Shown: positions 35,687-60,228 of the stretch, in pieces
Position numbering within the stretch: position 1 is the first letter of the stretch
How the letters are laid out: the number at the start of each line of letters is the position of its first letter
NCBI RefSeq assembly: GCF_025273675.1
Contig: NZ_CP045809.1
Coordinates: 496,001 to 560,000 of the forward strand
Direction of reading: 5' to 3'
DNA length: 64,000 nt
From: Gordonia pseudamarae
Lineage (GTDB): Bacteria; Actinomycetota; Actinomycetes; Mycobacteriales; Mycobacteriaceae
The notes under the pieces: model-generated
What the model was told of the DNA's origin: nothing
What the model saw: only the letters and a program-made list of their open reading frames with translations
Databases searched by the model: none
Position numbers and translations under genes: made by a program

Positions 35687-35775
35687 GGTGCGAGGAGCGC
35701 AAGCGACGAGCCTCGAAACCCCGCGAGATGACAATGCTGTCGTGCGCGGTTTCGAGGCTCATCGCATCTCAACCA
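35683..35775. repeat. Dispersed intergenic repeat (family R), inverted pair
   Basis: GCTGAGGTGCGAG ... GAGCCTCGAAACCCCGCG, then about 20 nt, then the inverted copy GCGGTTTCGAGGCTCATCGC ... TCTCAACCAGCGG. It fills the gap between the convergent mutT3 and LeuA-domain genes and reaches the stop codons of both. Confidence 0.75.
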
Positions 35776-36140
35776 GCGGTATGTAGGCGGTTTGCTCCGT
35801 TCACCAGGGCGTTGACGTTGGCGTCGTCGCCGGTGCGGCCGGTGCCGTAGGCCCAGCGCCGGGTGCCGTTGTGCTCGCACAGCAGATACGTGGCGAAGGC
35901 GTTGTCGGTGCGGCGCTGACGAAGCTCGACGATGGCCACGGGTGCGCCGATGTCGTGCAGGATCGAGGTCATGGCACCGACGGGGCCGGTCGCGGTGGCG
36001 TGCAATGACAGCAGGTCGTCGTCGACGACGAGGGTGGCGCGGCAGTCGATCATGTCGCCGCGGGCGGGGCTGGTGTGGAAGGCGTCGAGCCGGATGTGGC
36101 CGTCGCCGGTGTAGTGGTCGGTGAAGTCTTTCCAGGTCAT
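35769..36140 (-). CDS. Stand-alone LeuA regulatory (dimer) domain protein
   Basis: The 123-residue protein lines up with the C-terminal leucine-binding regulatory domain of 2-isopropylmalate synthase: LLSLHATATGPVGAMTSILH matches the GxGNGPxxAxxxAL segment, VAIVELRQRRTDNAFATYLL the following strand, and RWAYGTGRTGDDANVNALVN the WGVGxxxxxTxASxxAxxSAxNR end. There is no TIM-barrel catalytic domain. ATG 36140 is preceded by GAGGAGG. About 180-220 nt upstream lies a leader ORF with leucine codons and alternative stem-loops, as in leuA attenuators. A leucine sensor or a partner that modulates LeuA by mixed dimers is inferred; no function is proven. Confidence 0.7.
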   Translation of the reverse strand: MTWKDFTDHYTGDGHIRLDAFHTSPARGDMIDCRATLVVDDDLLSLHATATGPVGAMTSILHDIGAPVAIVELRQRRTDNAFATYLLCEHNGTRRWAYGTGRTGDDANVNALVNGANRLHTAG

Positions 36141-36288
36141 GGTGGATGCCTCCTCTCGGATACCGGGCGGCAGGGGGCTGATGGCGTGCCGTCCGGTGGG
36201 ACGAGGCGAGCATGGCCGGGTGGGGTGAACTGCATGCATCGAATGTGCTCATTTCGGTCGAAATCGGGTGACCGACTCGGGTGCGCGC

Positions 36289-36313
36289 ACCGACCCCGCA
36301 GCGGGGGGTCGGT
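36289..36313 (-). terminator. Attenuator terminator stem-loop
   Basis: On the minus-strand transcript ACCGACCCC pairs perfectly with GGGGTCGGT (9 bp, 7-nt loop) shortly after the leader-peptide stop. No U-run follows, which is common in actinobacteria. Confidence 0.6.
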
Positions 36314-36334
36314 CGAGATCAGACCCCGCTGCGG
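36296..36334 (-). promoter_or_regulatory. Alternative antiterminator pairing
   Basis: Bases 36334-36322 (CCGCAGCGGGGTC in the RNA sense) can pair with 36310-36296 (GACCCCCCGCTGCGG), giving 11+2 bp with a 2-nt bulge. This uses bases also needed for the terminator, so the two structures are mutually exclusive. The leader stop codon lies directly after the 5' strand. Confidence 0.6.
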
Positions 36335-36366
36335 CGGGCTACCAGAAGCGCACGTGTCTTGAGCAC
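36319..36366 (-). CDS. Leader peptide with leucine codons (leuL-like)
   Basis: GTG 36366 opens a 15-codon frame reading V-L-K-T-R-A-L-L-V-A-R-R-S-G-V and ending at TGA 36321-36319. It has three Leu codons (CTC, CTT, CTG), two adjacent. A TACCCT -10 lies 7 nt upstream, so the peptide would start a leaderless transcript. Placement just before mutually exclusive hairpins matches a ribosome-stalling leucine attenuator. It is too short for ordinary ORF finding, and translation is inferred. Confidence 0.6.
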   Translation of the reverse strand: MLKTRALLVARRSGV

Positions 36367-36373
36367 GGAGTCG

Positions 36374-36379
36374 AGGGTA
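36374..36379 (-). promoter_or_regulatory. Leaderless-type -10 (TACCCT) for the leader peptide
   Basis: Read on the minus strand, TACCCT is followed by CGACTCC (7 nt) and the leader GTG. Confidence 0.5.
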
Positions 36380-36395
36380 CACCCTCACCATGGTC

Positions 36396-36417
36396 GAGTG
36401 TGAAAGTTTTCACACTC
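36396..36417. promoter_or_regulatory. Perfect 22-bp palindrome, probable operator
   Basis: Arms GAGTGTGAAA and TTTCACACTC are perfect (10 bp) around GT. The centre is about 40 bp upstream of the inferred leader-peptide transcription start, over the -35 region, and 4 bp beyond the thiE stop codon. It is a strong candidate repressor or activator site for the LeuA-domain gene. Confidence 0.6.
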
Positions 36418-36420
36418 GCG

Positions 36421-37149
36421 TCAGCGACCTGCGGTGATGCCTTCTGCTCGGATTCCGGTGCCTCCGGGGGTTCCGGTGCCCGCGGGGATGCCCGCCACCA
36501 GGGCGCGGGCGGCGGCCTCGGGGTCGTCGGCGGCGGTGATGGCCCGCACCACGACGATCCGGCTCGCCCCGGCATCGGTGACCTCGGGCAGCCGCCGCGC
36601 GTCGATCCCGCCGATTGCGAACCACGGCTTTGCCGGGTCGCCCGCGGCCACCTGGCGCACGAGGTCGAGGCCGGGTGCTGTCCGGCCGGGTTTGGTGGGA
36701 GTCGGCCAGCACGGTCCGACGCAGAAGTAGTCGACGTCCCGGTCGGCGGCCGCGGCGACGGCCTGGACCTCGTCGTGGGTGGACTGCCCGATGACGACGT
36801 CCTCGCCGACGATCTCGCGTGCCTGCGCAGGGGTCAGGTCGCCCTGTCCTACGTGCAGGACGTCGGCGCCGGACAGCCGGGCGAGGTCGGCGCGGTCGTT
36901 GACCGACAGCAGCGCCCCGGCCGCGTGTGTGATCTCCCGCAGGCGGGCGAGGACGGCGAGTTCCTCGGCCGCTTCGAGGGCGCCGAATTCGCGTTCGCCC
37001 GCCGATCCCTTGTCGCGCAGTTGCACGATGTCGACACCACCGGCGACCGCCCGGGCGACGAACTCGTCGAGGTCGCCGAGTTCGCGGCGGGCATCGGTGC
37101 ACAGGTACAGGCGAGCGTCCGCGAGTCGGTCGTGGATGTGGCTCGTCAT
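36421..37149 (-). CDS. thiE: Thiamine-phosphate synthase
   Basis: ThiE joins HMP-pyrophosphate and thiazole phosphate to give thiamine phosphate. The 242-residue TIM barrel contains [21 protein letters not shown] (pyrophosphate and HMP site), [57 protein letters not shown] and WFAIGGID. The C-terminal 30 residues are a Gly/Thr-rich extension without family counterpart. ATG 37149 overlaps the aldo/keto reductase stop (ATGA), so thiE is read from that gene's promoter and not from the TPP riboswitch, which faces the other way. Confidence 0.93.
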
Positions 37150-38162: not shown

Positions 38163-38175
38163 GGATCGAGGAAGA

Positions 38176-38263
38176 CACGGGAGCCCGCGGGATCGTCGGG
38201 CTGAGAGTGCGGGGCGCCCCCGCGGACCGTCACACCTGATCCGGGTAATGCCGGCGCAGGAAG
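38176..38263 (+). ncRNA. TPP riboswitch
   Basis: The THI-box elements are present in order: GGGAGCCCG, GGGCTGAGAGTGCGG with the CUGAGA core, and CACACCTGATCCGGGTAATG then CCGGCGCAGGAAGG. The thiO ribosome-binding site (AGGAAGG, ending 7 nt before the GTG) is part of the 3' end of the aptamer, so thiamine pyrophosphate binding should block translation of thiO and the coupled thiS and thiG. Confidence 0.95.
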
Positions 38264-38270
38264 GACTGTT

Positions 38271-39368
38271 GTGGCAGAAGACAATATCGTGTCAGGCGAC
38301 GATGGTGGGGCACGCCCGCGGTCCGATCGCGCCACGCTGACGGTGGTCGGCGGCGGCGTGATCGGGTTGTGCTGCGCGCTGGCCGCCGCCGACGCGGGGT
38401 GGCGGGTGACGGTACTGACCGACCCGGACGCACCGCGCGCGGCCGACGTGGCCGGCGGGATGCTCGGCTCTCTCGGCGAGGGACATCCCGGTGAGGATGT
38501 GCTGCTGGAGATCACCGCTGACTCGGTGCGCCGCTGGCCGGCGCTGCTCGCCCGGCTGGCCGATCCGGCGATCGTGGTGGCCACCGATTCGCTGTTCGTC
38601 GGGGTGACGTCCGCGGATGTGGCGGTCCTGGCGCAGCTCGCCCGGTTCGTGTGGTCCGGGCCGGTCGGCTCCGAGACTGTCGAGAGATCGGTGTTGCGGC
38701 AGGTGGGCGGTCGCGAGATCCGGGATCTGGAACCGGCTCTCGGCCCGCGCCCGGTCGGCGGCTTCCTCGCCTCGGGGGAGGGGGCCGTCGACAACCGGAT
38801 GCTTCTGCGGGCCCTGGAATCTGCGCTGGTGGAGCGCGGCGGAGTGGTGTGTGCGCGGCGGGTCGACTCGCCGGCCGGACTGGACGGCGACCGGATTCTT
38901 GTCGCGGCCGGTCTTGGGACATCGAAACTTGTTTCCGGCGTAGACCTTTACGCGGCAAAGGGGGAGATTCTGCGGTTGACGGCGAACGCCTGGTCGGTAC
39001 CCGGGCCCCGCCACGTGGTGCGAGCGCGGGTCGGCGACCGGATGGTGTACCTGGTGCCGCGAAGCGGTGGCATCGTGATCGGTGCGACGCAATACGAGCC
39101 GATCGACGCCGCGGACAGGGCGCCCCGGGTCTCCGGGGTGGCCGATCTGCTGGCCGACGCGCTGGAGGTGATGCCGGGACTGCGGACCTACGACCTGGCC
39201 GAGGTGAGTGTGGGCATGCGCCCGTGCACCGCCGACGGACTGCCGGTGGTGCGTGCCGTCGACGAACGGGTGATTGTGGCCACCGGTCACGGACGAAACG
39301 GTATTGTGCTGGCGCCGTGGACCTCTCATCGTTTTGTCGAGATCCTCGGGGAATCCTGGGCGGACTGA
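38271..39368 (+). CDS. thiO: Glycine oxidase ThiO
   Basis: ThiO oxidises glycine to dehydroglycine for the thiazole ring of thiamine, with FAD. The 365-residue protein has the N-terminal FAD motif LTVVGGGVIGLCCALAAADA, GGMLGSLGEGHP, the substrate-domain region VPRSGGIVIGATQYEP, and the closing VIVATGHGRNGIVLAPWTS typical of the DAAO/ThiO family. GTG 38271 is directly controlled by the riboswitch. It is the first gene of thiO-thiS-thiG, equal to Rv0415-Rv0417 order. Confidence 0.94.
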   Translation: MAEDNIVSGDDGGARPRSDRATLTVVGGGVIGLCCALAAADAGWRVTVLTDPDAPRAADVAGGMLGSLGEGHPGEDVLLEITADSVRRWPALLARLADPAIVVATDSLFVGVTSADVAVLAQLARFVWSGPVGSETVERSVLRQVGGREIRDLEPALGPRPVGGFLASGEGAVDNRMLLRALESALVERGGVVCARRVDSPAGLDGDRILVAAGLGTSKLVSGVDLYAAKGEILRLTANAWSVPGPRHVVRARVGDRMVYLVPRSGGIVIGATQYEPIDAADRAPRVSGVADLLADALEVMPGLRTYDLAEVSVGMRPCTADGLPVVRAVDERVIVATGHGRNGIVLAPWTSHRFVEILGESWAD

Positions 39369-58221: not shown

Positions 58222-60228
58222 TCAGGTGAGCTTGTAGATCGTGGTTCCGCCGACGGTGGTCGCGGTGAAGTTCTCCGCGACCCATTCGGAGATCTCCGAG
58301 TTGCCGCCGGGGCCACCGCCGGTACCGCCGAGGTAGTAGCCGATCTTGCCCTCGGCCACGTAGGCCTTGAACTCGTCGAGGGTCGGGGCGGGATCACCGC
58401 TCCAGCCGCCGATCGCCATGACCGAGGTGCCGGTGGCCAGTTCGATGCCCGACGCCGACTGTGAACCGTTGGTGGCCGCCGACCAGGTGGTGCCCGCCGA
58501 CTTCAGGAGTGCCACCAGTTCGGCGTTCGACGAGATGTCTTCGCCGGGCCCCCCGCGACCGCCCTGGCCCCGTCCGTCGGTGCCCTGTCCGTTCGTGCCC
58601 TGTCCGTTCGTGCCCTGTCCGTTCGTGCCCTGTCCGTTCGTGCCCTGGCCGGGGGCGCCGCCGGGACCACCGGCGCCGGGGCCGCCGAAGCCGCCGCCCA
58701 TGCCGCCGCCGATCGAGGTGCTGACCGCGTTCGGGTTCGAGCCGCCGTGTGATTCGGCTGCGGTGGCGATCGAGAAGGCCGCGGTTCCGCCGAAGCCCGC
58801 GAGCGAGCCTGCGATGAGGGCAGCCGCCACCAGCTTGCGCATACCCAGGGTGCTGCCGATCAGCAGGGCGGCGACCGAGGCCAGTGCCACCACTCCGATT
58901 GCCCAGCGGCACCATTCGGGGCCCCAGCTGTTGCGGTTCAGCAGGACGATCGACCACCAGGCGGCCAGTCCGATCATGCCCGCCATCATCAGGCGGCCGT
59001 CCCAGTGATCGCGCCGACGCCAGGCCAGCACCGCCCCGATGCCCACGAGAGCGCCGACCGCCGGGGCCAGGGCCACCGTGTAGTAGGGGTGGATTGTGCC
59101 GCTCATGAACGAGAACACCAGCGCGGTCACCAGAAGCCAACCGCCCCAGGCGAACACGGCGCCACCCTCGACACGGTTCATGCGTCCGGTGACGTTACCG
59201 AGCTGGTTGACGCTGCGCACACCGACATACGCGGCAAAGACCACCACCAGCAGTGCCGCCGGCAGCAACCAGGAGATCTCGTTACCCATCTCGGAGCTGA
59301 ACAGTCGGTCCAGCCCGGTCGAGCCGCCGAAAGATCCGCCGCCACCGGGGCCGTTGCCCGCGTCGCCACTGATACGGCCGAGACCGTTGTAGCCCAGCAC
59401 CAGGTCCATGAAGCTGTTGTCACTCGACCCGCCGATGTAGGGGCGAGAGGATTCGGGAACGACGATGGTGACCACCACGAACCAGCCGGCACTCACGATC
59501 AGTGCGACGGTCGCGCCCACCAGGTGCAGAATGCGTTTGCCCCAGCCGTTGTCGGCGAACACCAGGTATGCCAGTCCGAAGGCGGGCAGTACCAGCAGGC
59601 CCTGCATCATCTTGGTGAGGAAGGCGAAGCCGAGGGCCACGCCCACCAGCGCCAGCCAGCGTCCGGAGTTGGTGGCGATCGCCCGGACCAGGCAGTAGCC
59701 CGCCGCGGTCATCAGCAGCACCAGCAGCGCATCCGGGTTGTTGAACCGGAACATCAGCGCGGCGGCCGGGGTGAAGGCGAGCACGGCGCCCGCGATGAGG
59801 CCGGCGGCGGTGCCCTGTTTCGGGTCGCTGAAGGTGCGGCGCATCGTCGCGTACAGCAGACCGACGGCGGCCACACCCATCAGCGCCTGCGGCGCCAGTG
59901 CGGCCCAGCTGTTCACGCCGAAGATCCGCATCGACAGGCCCGTCACCCACAGCGAGGCGGGCGGTTTGTCGACGGTGATGAAGTTCGCGGCGTCGAGGGA
60001 ACCGAAGAACCAGGCCCGCCAGCTCTGCGAACCCGCCTGTGCCGCGGCCGCGTAGAAGGTGTTCGCGAAGCCGCTGGCGCTCAGATTCCACAGATAGAGC
60101 ACGGCGGTGGTCGCCAGCAGCCCGCTCAGCGCCCATTTGCTCCACCACAGCGGCCGCCGACGCCTCGTCGCCTCGGGCGGTGGCGTCGGCGTCACCTCCG
60201 GTGCGGACCGGTCGAGTACTGCTGTCAT
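58222..60228 (-). CDS. GT39/ArnT-like membrane glycosyltransferase with Gly-rich insert
   Basis: A 668-residue polytopic protein with 11-13 membrane segments over about 30-475. The first outside loop carries the family pattern (TFYAAAAQAGSQSWRAWFFG, FITVDKPPASLWVTGLSMRI). After the membrane part come a Gly-rich stretch (about 490-560) with five GQGTN/D units coded by a 15-bp tandem repeat, and a small extracytoplasmic domain (VMAIGGWSGDPAPTLDEFKA, TTIYKLT end). Enzymes of this type transfer a sugar from a polyprenyl-phosphate donor outside the membrane. The acceptor is unknown. AGGAGATG precedes ATG 60228. Confidence 0.85.
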   Translation of the reverse strand: MTAVLDRSAPEVTPTPPPEATRRRRPLWWSKWALSGLLATTAVLYLWNLSASGFANTFYAAAAQAGSQSWRAWFFGSLDAANFITVDKPPASLWVTGLSMRIFGVNSWAALAPQALMGVAAVGLLYATMRRTFSDPKQGTAAGLIAGAVLAFTPAAALMFRFNNPDALLVLLMTAAGYCLVRAIATNSGRWLALVGVALGFAFLTKMMQGLLVLPAFGLAYLVFADNGWGKRILHLVGATVALIVSAGWFVVVTIVVPESSRPYIGGSSDNSFMDLVLGYNGLGRISGDAGNGPGGGGSFGGSTGLDRLFSSEMGNEISWLLPAALLVVVFAAYVGVRSVNQLGNVTGRMNRVEGGAVFAWGGWLLVTALVFSFMSGTIHPYYTVALAPAVGALVGIGAVLAWRRRDHWDGRLMMAGMIGLAAWWSIVLLNRNSWGPEWCRWAIGVVALASVAALLIGSTLGMRKLVAAALIAGSLAGFGGTAAFSIATAAESHGGSNPNAVSTSIGGGMGGGFGGPGAGGPGGAPGQGTNGQGTNGQGTNGQGTNGQGTDGRGQGGRGGPGEDISSNAELVALLKSAGTTWSAATNGSQSASGIELATGTSVMAIGGWSGDPAPTLDEFKAYVAEGKIGYYLGGTGGGPGGNSEISEWVAENFTATTVGGTTIYKLT

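Follow-up and report, generated by a model that had tools for sequence, protein, structure and literature searches.

The locus considered here raises an unusual question: why should a bacterial cell keep a copy of the regulatory domain of 2-isopropylmalate synthase (LeuA) apart from the enzyme, and place it behind an RNA leader resembling that of leuA itself? The gene lies in a window of 64,000 nucleotides of the Gordonia pseudamarae sequence (the whole stretch analysed), and the original prediction described it as a LeuA sensor domain of 123 residues behind a leucine attenuator. Several questions follow. Where does the gene start, and what does it encode? Where does its leader come from? Which amino acid would the leader sense, and at which step would it act? 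What might the free domain do? The reading favoured here, to which as a whole we give a probability of roughly 55%, is that a leuA-type switch gated by leucine or valine controls a free LeuA regulatory domain, which would tune LeuA.

The gene is on the minus strand. Its start had been placed at 36137, but the real start is at 36239, and hence the gene (35769-36239) encodes a protein of 156 amino acids, as supported by the conserved start position, homology searches and a predicted model. This length follows from two kinds of conservation. An in-frame ATG (136 copies) or GTG (9 copies) is found 73-99 nt past the leader stop codon in 145 of 147 copies, L010 and L036 being the exceptions; the count leaves aside four of 151 leaders (L084, L116, L117 and L164) with no resolved gene, for three of which the retrieved stretch stops within about 180 nt. 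At the N-terminus, P24 is invariant in 33 copies and L23 and R28 are nearly so, and all three residues precede the start supposed earlier.

Searched alone, the window protein reaches no Pfam family; it has no match to PF08502 (LeuA_dimer) at E ≤ 0.01 and remains below the Pfam cut-off, so that its membership in the LeuA_dimer domain rests on its relatives. Of 33 family members, 16 match PF08502 at E ≤ 0.01 (best 7.3e-8) and 29 match the NCBIfam LeuA family NF002991 at the same threshold, a search in which one member also matched an unrelated family weakly, which was taken as chance. The window protein itself matches NF002991 weakly (E 0.0013-0.002), at positions 422-550 of 550. Compared with a profile of 19 LeuA C-termini, the family profile aligns across 129 columns at E 2.7e-10 and about 19% identity, and a search of the PDB with the family profile finds Mycobacterium tuberculosis LeuA (E 4.7e-6, both halves aligned), with 1sr9/3fig as the nearest solved structure. 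The claim of a LeuA sensor domain thus holds through the homology of the family to PF08502 and to LeuA C-termini, and fails as far as a PF08502 match of the window protein is concerned. The predicted model (mean pLDDT 89.5) contains two bbba units; the LeuA regulatory domain is described as two bbba units (PMC10464499), and by comparison with that description the arrangement agrees. Like PF08502, therefore, the protein has a predicted bbba-bbba fold in which both halves align; unlike PF08502 in LeuA, it stands alone, shares only this low identity, has a shorter loop at the leucine site and carries some 30-odd N-terminal residues of its own. The catalytic TIM-barrel domain of 2-isopropylmalate synthase is absent from the 156 residues, which only the C-terminal part of NF002991 matches. 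These comparisons establish the stand-alone protein, at the level of homology, as a non-catalytic relative of the LeuA regulatory domain. In LeuA a loop closes over the bound leucine (PMC11057210), and the stretch of the window protein that aligns with this loop is shorter by about four residues. Leucine binding may have been lost, and since the loop at the leucine site is shortened the ligand of the stand-alone protein may differ. Public records name such proteins 'homocitrate synthase', '2-isopropylmalate synthase' or 'hypothetical protein', the first label standing in several mycobacterial records despite the lack of a catalytic domain.

Is the gene still functional? If it were a decaying, functionless remnant of a leuA duplicate, the missing catalytic domain would be explained, and so would the degraded leaders of some copies and the in-frame TAG of one Gordonia copy (G020:C2:304285-304647). 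Against this, dN/dS of the stand-alone gene is 0.09-0.36 in 12 of 12 pairs, and the gene is retained in all 36 same-genus genomes searched and, by a protein-side search, in 52 of 61 genomes of its family, the mycobacteria and their kin. The pseudogene reading is highly improbable and has been rejected for the family as a whole on account of these dN/dS values and this wide retention. When 246 genomes were drawn from the class, 19 of 20 own-family genomes among the matches listed had stand-alone frames; outside the family, the matches listed were full-length LeuA frames except for two shorter ones (291 and 251 aa), which are taken as putative contig ends.

The genes around the stand-alone gene vary. 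Upstream, thiE is found in 22 of the 96 named loci with enough sequence; a NUDIX gene is downstream in 17 of 98, and both are present in 15 of 76. Elsewhere a P450, TauE, a cation ATPase and more are found (ten neighbours at six loci). The idea that the gene belongs with the thiamine genes, by operon or by neighbourhood, was rejected, because thiE is upstream in just those 22 loci and the neighbours vary. A TPP riboswitch at the gathering score (38167-38280, plus strand, 56.1 bits) overlaps, near thiE, the start of an open reading frame at 38271, which we take to be thiO-like. The leader is mostly retained while the neighbourhood changes; the gene relocates yet mostly keeps its leuA-type switch, and this ties it to the metabolism of leucine and valine, not to an operon.

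The leader encodes a peptide of 15 codons, VLKTRALLVARRSGV*, at 36366-36319 of the minus strand (stop codon 36321-36319), with three Leu codons. Its start codon is GTG, and a -10-like hexamer, TACCCT (36379-36374), lies 7 nt ahead of it; both the peptide and the -10 had been predicted and are present. Of 150 leaders, 111 have a TANNNT hexamer that ends 1-8 nt before a start codon, and in 106 of those the distance is 7-8 nt. Because the hexamer is spaced 7 nt from the GTG, translation of the leader likely begins at or near the 5′ end of the RNA, in leaderless fashion. The peptide ending RSGV* is found in 151 of 151 distinct leaders, although the DNA pattern that selected them itself fixes SGV* and two bases of R. 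Five Gordonia loci retrieved by protein miss the exact pattern and stand outside these 151: L008, L012, L027 and L030 have variant leaders, the RSGV* ending being absent from the last three, and L013 is at a contig edge. Degraded leaders with one Val left, or other endings, occur at L320, L321, L325, L326, L027 and L030. A palindrome, GTGTGAAAACTTTCACAC, is located at 36398-36415, between thiE and the leader promoter, and is possibly an operator or the thiE terminator; no other site in the genome matches it with two mismatches or fewer, and in the two closest relatives its arms are retained with changed centres.

Where does this leader come from? The leader of actinobacterial leuA has been described as the LEU element (Seliverstov et al., 2005; PMC1262725). 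leuA of the same genome is preceded by the leader MQRALLLGCRGGV*, after which the motifs are arranged as they are ahead of the stand-alone gene. Among leuA loci, a pattern parsed 40 of 60, leaving the other 20 uncounted and giving 39 distinct leaders for a codon tally and 38 for alignment, of which 31 were used in alignment A1 and 7 with long inserts dropped. The covariance model R1, trained solely on 31 leuA leaders, places its best match in the window at this leader (36273-36360, minus strand; 49.3 bits, E 1.9e-10). The next match in the window, a weak one at 59678-59791 of the minus strand (19.5 bits, E 0.011), is not among the genome-wide matches at E ≤ 0.001. At this threshold the genome has two places only, leuA and the stand-alone gene. 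Searched with R1, all 35 stand-alone loci that were tried also yield the leader (30 retrieved by a DNA pattern sharing the core, 5 by protein). By sequence, this leader (36366-36319) belongs with the LEU element as its paralogue; both leader and domain have homologues at leuA.

Among the 61 family genomes, R1 at E ≤ 0.001 yields 114 matches: 59 at leuA, 13 at a second leuA (leuA2) and 42 at stand-alone genes, the 42 spread over 22 of 31 genera sampled. The leuA and leuA2 elements were assigned by adjacency to LeuA matches; 37 others were retrieved, and five more were known beforehand. All 37 precede a stand-alone gene, and a 38th retrieved stretch proved to be leuA itself. Of the 52 stand-alone genes, 42 have an R1 match at E ≤ 0.001 and 10 do not at that threshold; with filters off, eight of these ten have a weaker match directly upstream (18.2-43.1 bits), most with Val codons, and no LEU element was detected upstream of L322 and L323 (G260 and G277, one genus), where the switch seems to have been lost or replaced. 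The eight weaker matches favour the reading of a leuA-type switch before a free domain about as much as the two missing elements weaken it. In a larger draw, 199 of 201 genomes have at least one LEU element among the matches listed. No Rfam 15 family was at or near its gathering score for the leader. The second leuA, present in thirteen genomes (L303-L315), is full-length and has its own LEU element; in the one genome compared (G096), the leuA2 domain scores 65.4 bits versus 46.3 for that of leuA among the matches listed.

The census bears on the target of the protein. It might act on something other than LeuA, for instance as the regulatory subunit of a different acyltransferase-type enzyme or as an independent sensor of amino acids, a proposal in keeping with the distance from LeuA (about 19% identity over 129 columns, with the shorter loop), with the 'homocitrate synthase' of some database names and with the lack of a constant gene neighbour. 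Among the 114 elements in 61 genomes, however, the switch is common only to leuA and leuA2, and we regard a target outside LeuA as a tentative alternative. For a leuA-type switch before a free regulatory domain, action on LeuA or LeuA2 would be the simplest role, and is a plausible one.

The element in front of the stand-alone gene differs from that of leuA in its candidate control codons. Counted back from the leader stop, codons -9 to -7 are LLL in 37 of 39 leuA leaders and in 11 of 11 parsed leuA2 leaders (in this tally the leuA2 leaders L312 and L313 were unparsed, and L295 and L296 finish in another frame), where stand-alone leaders read LV or LVV. In a set of 180 distinct stand-alone leaders, Val-Val is present in 137; the segment contains one Val or more in 178 and reads LLL in 2. 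Most of the set was selected by a pattern that fixes the stop, the three sense codons before it and two bases of the next codon upstream, which leaves the L/V codons free. The window leader has L-L-V rather than L-V-V in its candidate control codons, CTT CTG GTA (36340-36348). GTA makes up 301 of the 341 Val codons at -11 to -5 of stand-alone leaders and is a rare codon, with 9 of 168 valine codons in six window genes. Alignment of the two classes shows that the LLL run of leuA has become Leu-Val(-Val), and with LLL so rare (2 of 180) the leader is filed as a recoded paralogue of the LEU element. The Leu codons had been expected to be conserved; what relatives keep is not the run but the Val codons. 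Owing to this recoding the leader is not a leucine-run attenuator, and valine shortage is suggested as the cue.

How would the leader act? Two mutually exclusive hairpins had been predicted; both fold at their positions, and both are kept in 27 relatives of other genera. On one side are helix P1 (36334-36324 with 36306-36296) and the pseudoknot helix P2, GACCGAC (36314-36308) with GTCGGTC (36276-36270), both based on alignments A2 and A3. On the other is the alternative hairpin Alt (36289-36313), exclusive of P1 and P2 and based on pairing in relatives. The MFE fold adds helix P0 (36353-36348 with 36286-36281). Compared with shuffles, a stretch of 131 nt has z -2.42 (2 of 200 fold as well) and the 87-nt leader alone z -1.50 (13 of 200). 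Alignment A2 contains 27 of 42 prepared stand-alone leaders, those dropped being mostly types with the basal helix placed elsewhere, and in it the equivalent of P0 pairs the Val codons themselves. Pairing of this Val-codon helix, P1 and P2 reaches 97.7% of 648 cells and drops to 34-50% if the partners are slid; there are 8 double changes, versus 2.6 in shuffles that ignore relatedness (0 of 500 as high). In A3, a hand-picked set of 36 sequences (20 stand-alone and 16 leuA cores, L029 being misaligned at its 3′ end), P1 and P2 are paired in 98.4% of 608 cells, with 34 double changes versus 13.3 (0 of 500), relatedness again being ignored; the largest pairing changes between leuA and stand-alone leaders may be single events. 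Little covariation is seen in the leuA-only alignment (9 double-change cells; shuffles give 7.4, and 138 of 500 reach 9). The Alt helix is paired in 95.7% of 162 cells versus 31-56% slid, with 4 double changes versus 0.9 in shuffles, and in L275, L278 and L284 one position covaries with its partners in both Alt and the pseudoknot, as expected of a real switch. Compensatory changes are thus found in both exclusive foldings, pseudoknot included. A further candidate, hairpin H3 (36275-36270 with 36259-36254, exclusive of P2), just ahead of the gene start, is weakly to moderately supported: of 48 cases 42 could be scored for one variable pair, which fits in 28 and not in the other 14, and the mean energy of the hairpin is -11.5, hardly better than the -10.9 obtained with partners swapped between loci. 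In the 7 of 30 leuA loci that the script parsed (48 of 62 for stand-alone loci), the result for H3 was no better than shuffles.

These foldings bear on the original idea of a plain leucine attenuator, in which shortage of leucine would let RNA polymerase read through an intrinsic terminator into the gene. The three Leu codons and exclusive hairpins of the window, together with the conservation of Alt, agree with it. However, 0 sites for an intrinsic terminator with a U-tract were found in 35700-36500, the Leu run has given way to Val in 178 of 180 leaders, and a pseudoknot placed ahead of the start codon would suit translation control better, so that such an attenuator is quite unlikely. Control at translation start is more likely than termination, given that no terminator with a U-tract was found. 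What survives of the original interpretation is that a leuA-type leader with two exclusive structures precedes a LeuA sensor domain lacking the catalytic part, an arrangement conserved far beyond Gordonia; attenuation at a leucine run and the terminator are abandoned.

Does a ribosome read the element at all? In Streptomyces coelicolor leuA, codon mutations are reported to be at odds with classical attenuation, and Seliverstov et al. (2005; PMC1262725) proposed and argued for a regulatory protein as the reader of the LEU element. The Val codons would then be kept only for pairing. They sit in a helix in A2 (27 leaders), so base pairing could by itself maintain them: in other genera GTAGTTC is matched by GAGCTAC, and at one pair both sides have changed in 4 of 27 sequences. 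The helix of the window is elsewhere, yet Gordonia leaders retain L-V, and the choice between LLL and LV/LVV tracks gene type in the 22 genera with elements at E ≤ 0.001. We therefore consider a protein-read element rather unlikely, and return to a leuA-type switch read by the ribosome.

From these features we infer the ligand, the partner and the direction of control, as follows. A leuA-type ancestor would have lost its catalytic domain while its LEU-element leader was retained. A ribosome would begin the leader at or near the RNA 5′ end and, when charged Val- or Leu-tRNA is short, stall on the L/V codons; P1 and P2 would then form, the gene start would stay open and the regulatory domain would be made. 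A ribosome reaching the leader stop would instead cover GACCGAC, so that GTCGGTC could fold onto the start region as H3 and translation would fall; the second folding state would consist of Alt and of H3 at the gene start. Relatives of the domain in LeuA bind leucine at a dimer interface, and the protein would act in trans on LeuA (or LeuA2) through mixed pairing of regulatory domains. Valine shortage would thereby restrain the drain of 2-ketoisovalerate into leucine. In this most specific form, a balancer of the branch point in which a duplicated leuA switch has been recoded from Leu to Val and valine shortage drives a LeuA-restraining free domain, the scheme is possible but doubtful. If true, it would save 2-ketoisovalerate for valine and pantothenate, and would represent an attenuator whose product is an allosteric domain working in trans. 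A description of the stand-alone gene and its leader was not found in the open-licence literature, and the locus suggests that a regulator yet to be described works where valine and leucine synthesis branch. It also offers a natural pair of homologous RNA switches, LLL before the enzyme and LV/LVV before a free copy of its sensor domain; with different control codons in the paired switches, ribosome stalling at the LEU element becomes directly testable.

IlvN and IlvH are separate regulatory subunits of amino-acid enzymes. HisZ is another such subunit (PMC9734150). The stand-alone protein would resemble them as a non-catalytic partner encoded apart from the enzyme, and differ from them in that LeuA retains its own regulatory domain, so that the stand-alone one would be a second, extra domain. 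The leaderless short reading frame as a sensor is reportedly shared with the polycysteine attenuators of mycobacteria, said to have been described by Canestrari and colleagues in 2020, in which the amino acid is a different one. Like the mycobacterial ilvB/ilvB1 leaders (PMC13236596; PMC1262725), the leader is a short frame with branched-chain codons before a gene of branched-chain amino acids; unlike those, for which a terminator is reported, none was found here, and the RNA is built like the LEU element. With the LEU element as described in PMC1262725 it shares a leader frame ending at the 5′ arm, a pseudoknot of interleaved helices and an alternative hairpin, and it is found by a model trained on leuA leaders. 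It departs from the leuA version in its Leu-Val(-Val) in place of a Leu run and in preceding a gene without a catalytic domain; the base stem between Leu run and Shine-Dalgarno sequence given in that account is not evident by eye here. Finally, MAB_3424c is listed as '(leuA)' with a translated upstream ORF (PMC4974804), while leuA is called MAB_0337c in PMC11057210; from these entries, MAB_3424c might be a leuA paralogue or a stand-alone gene.
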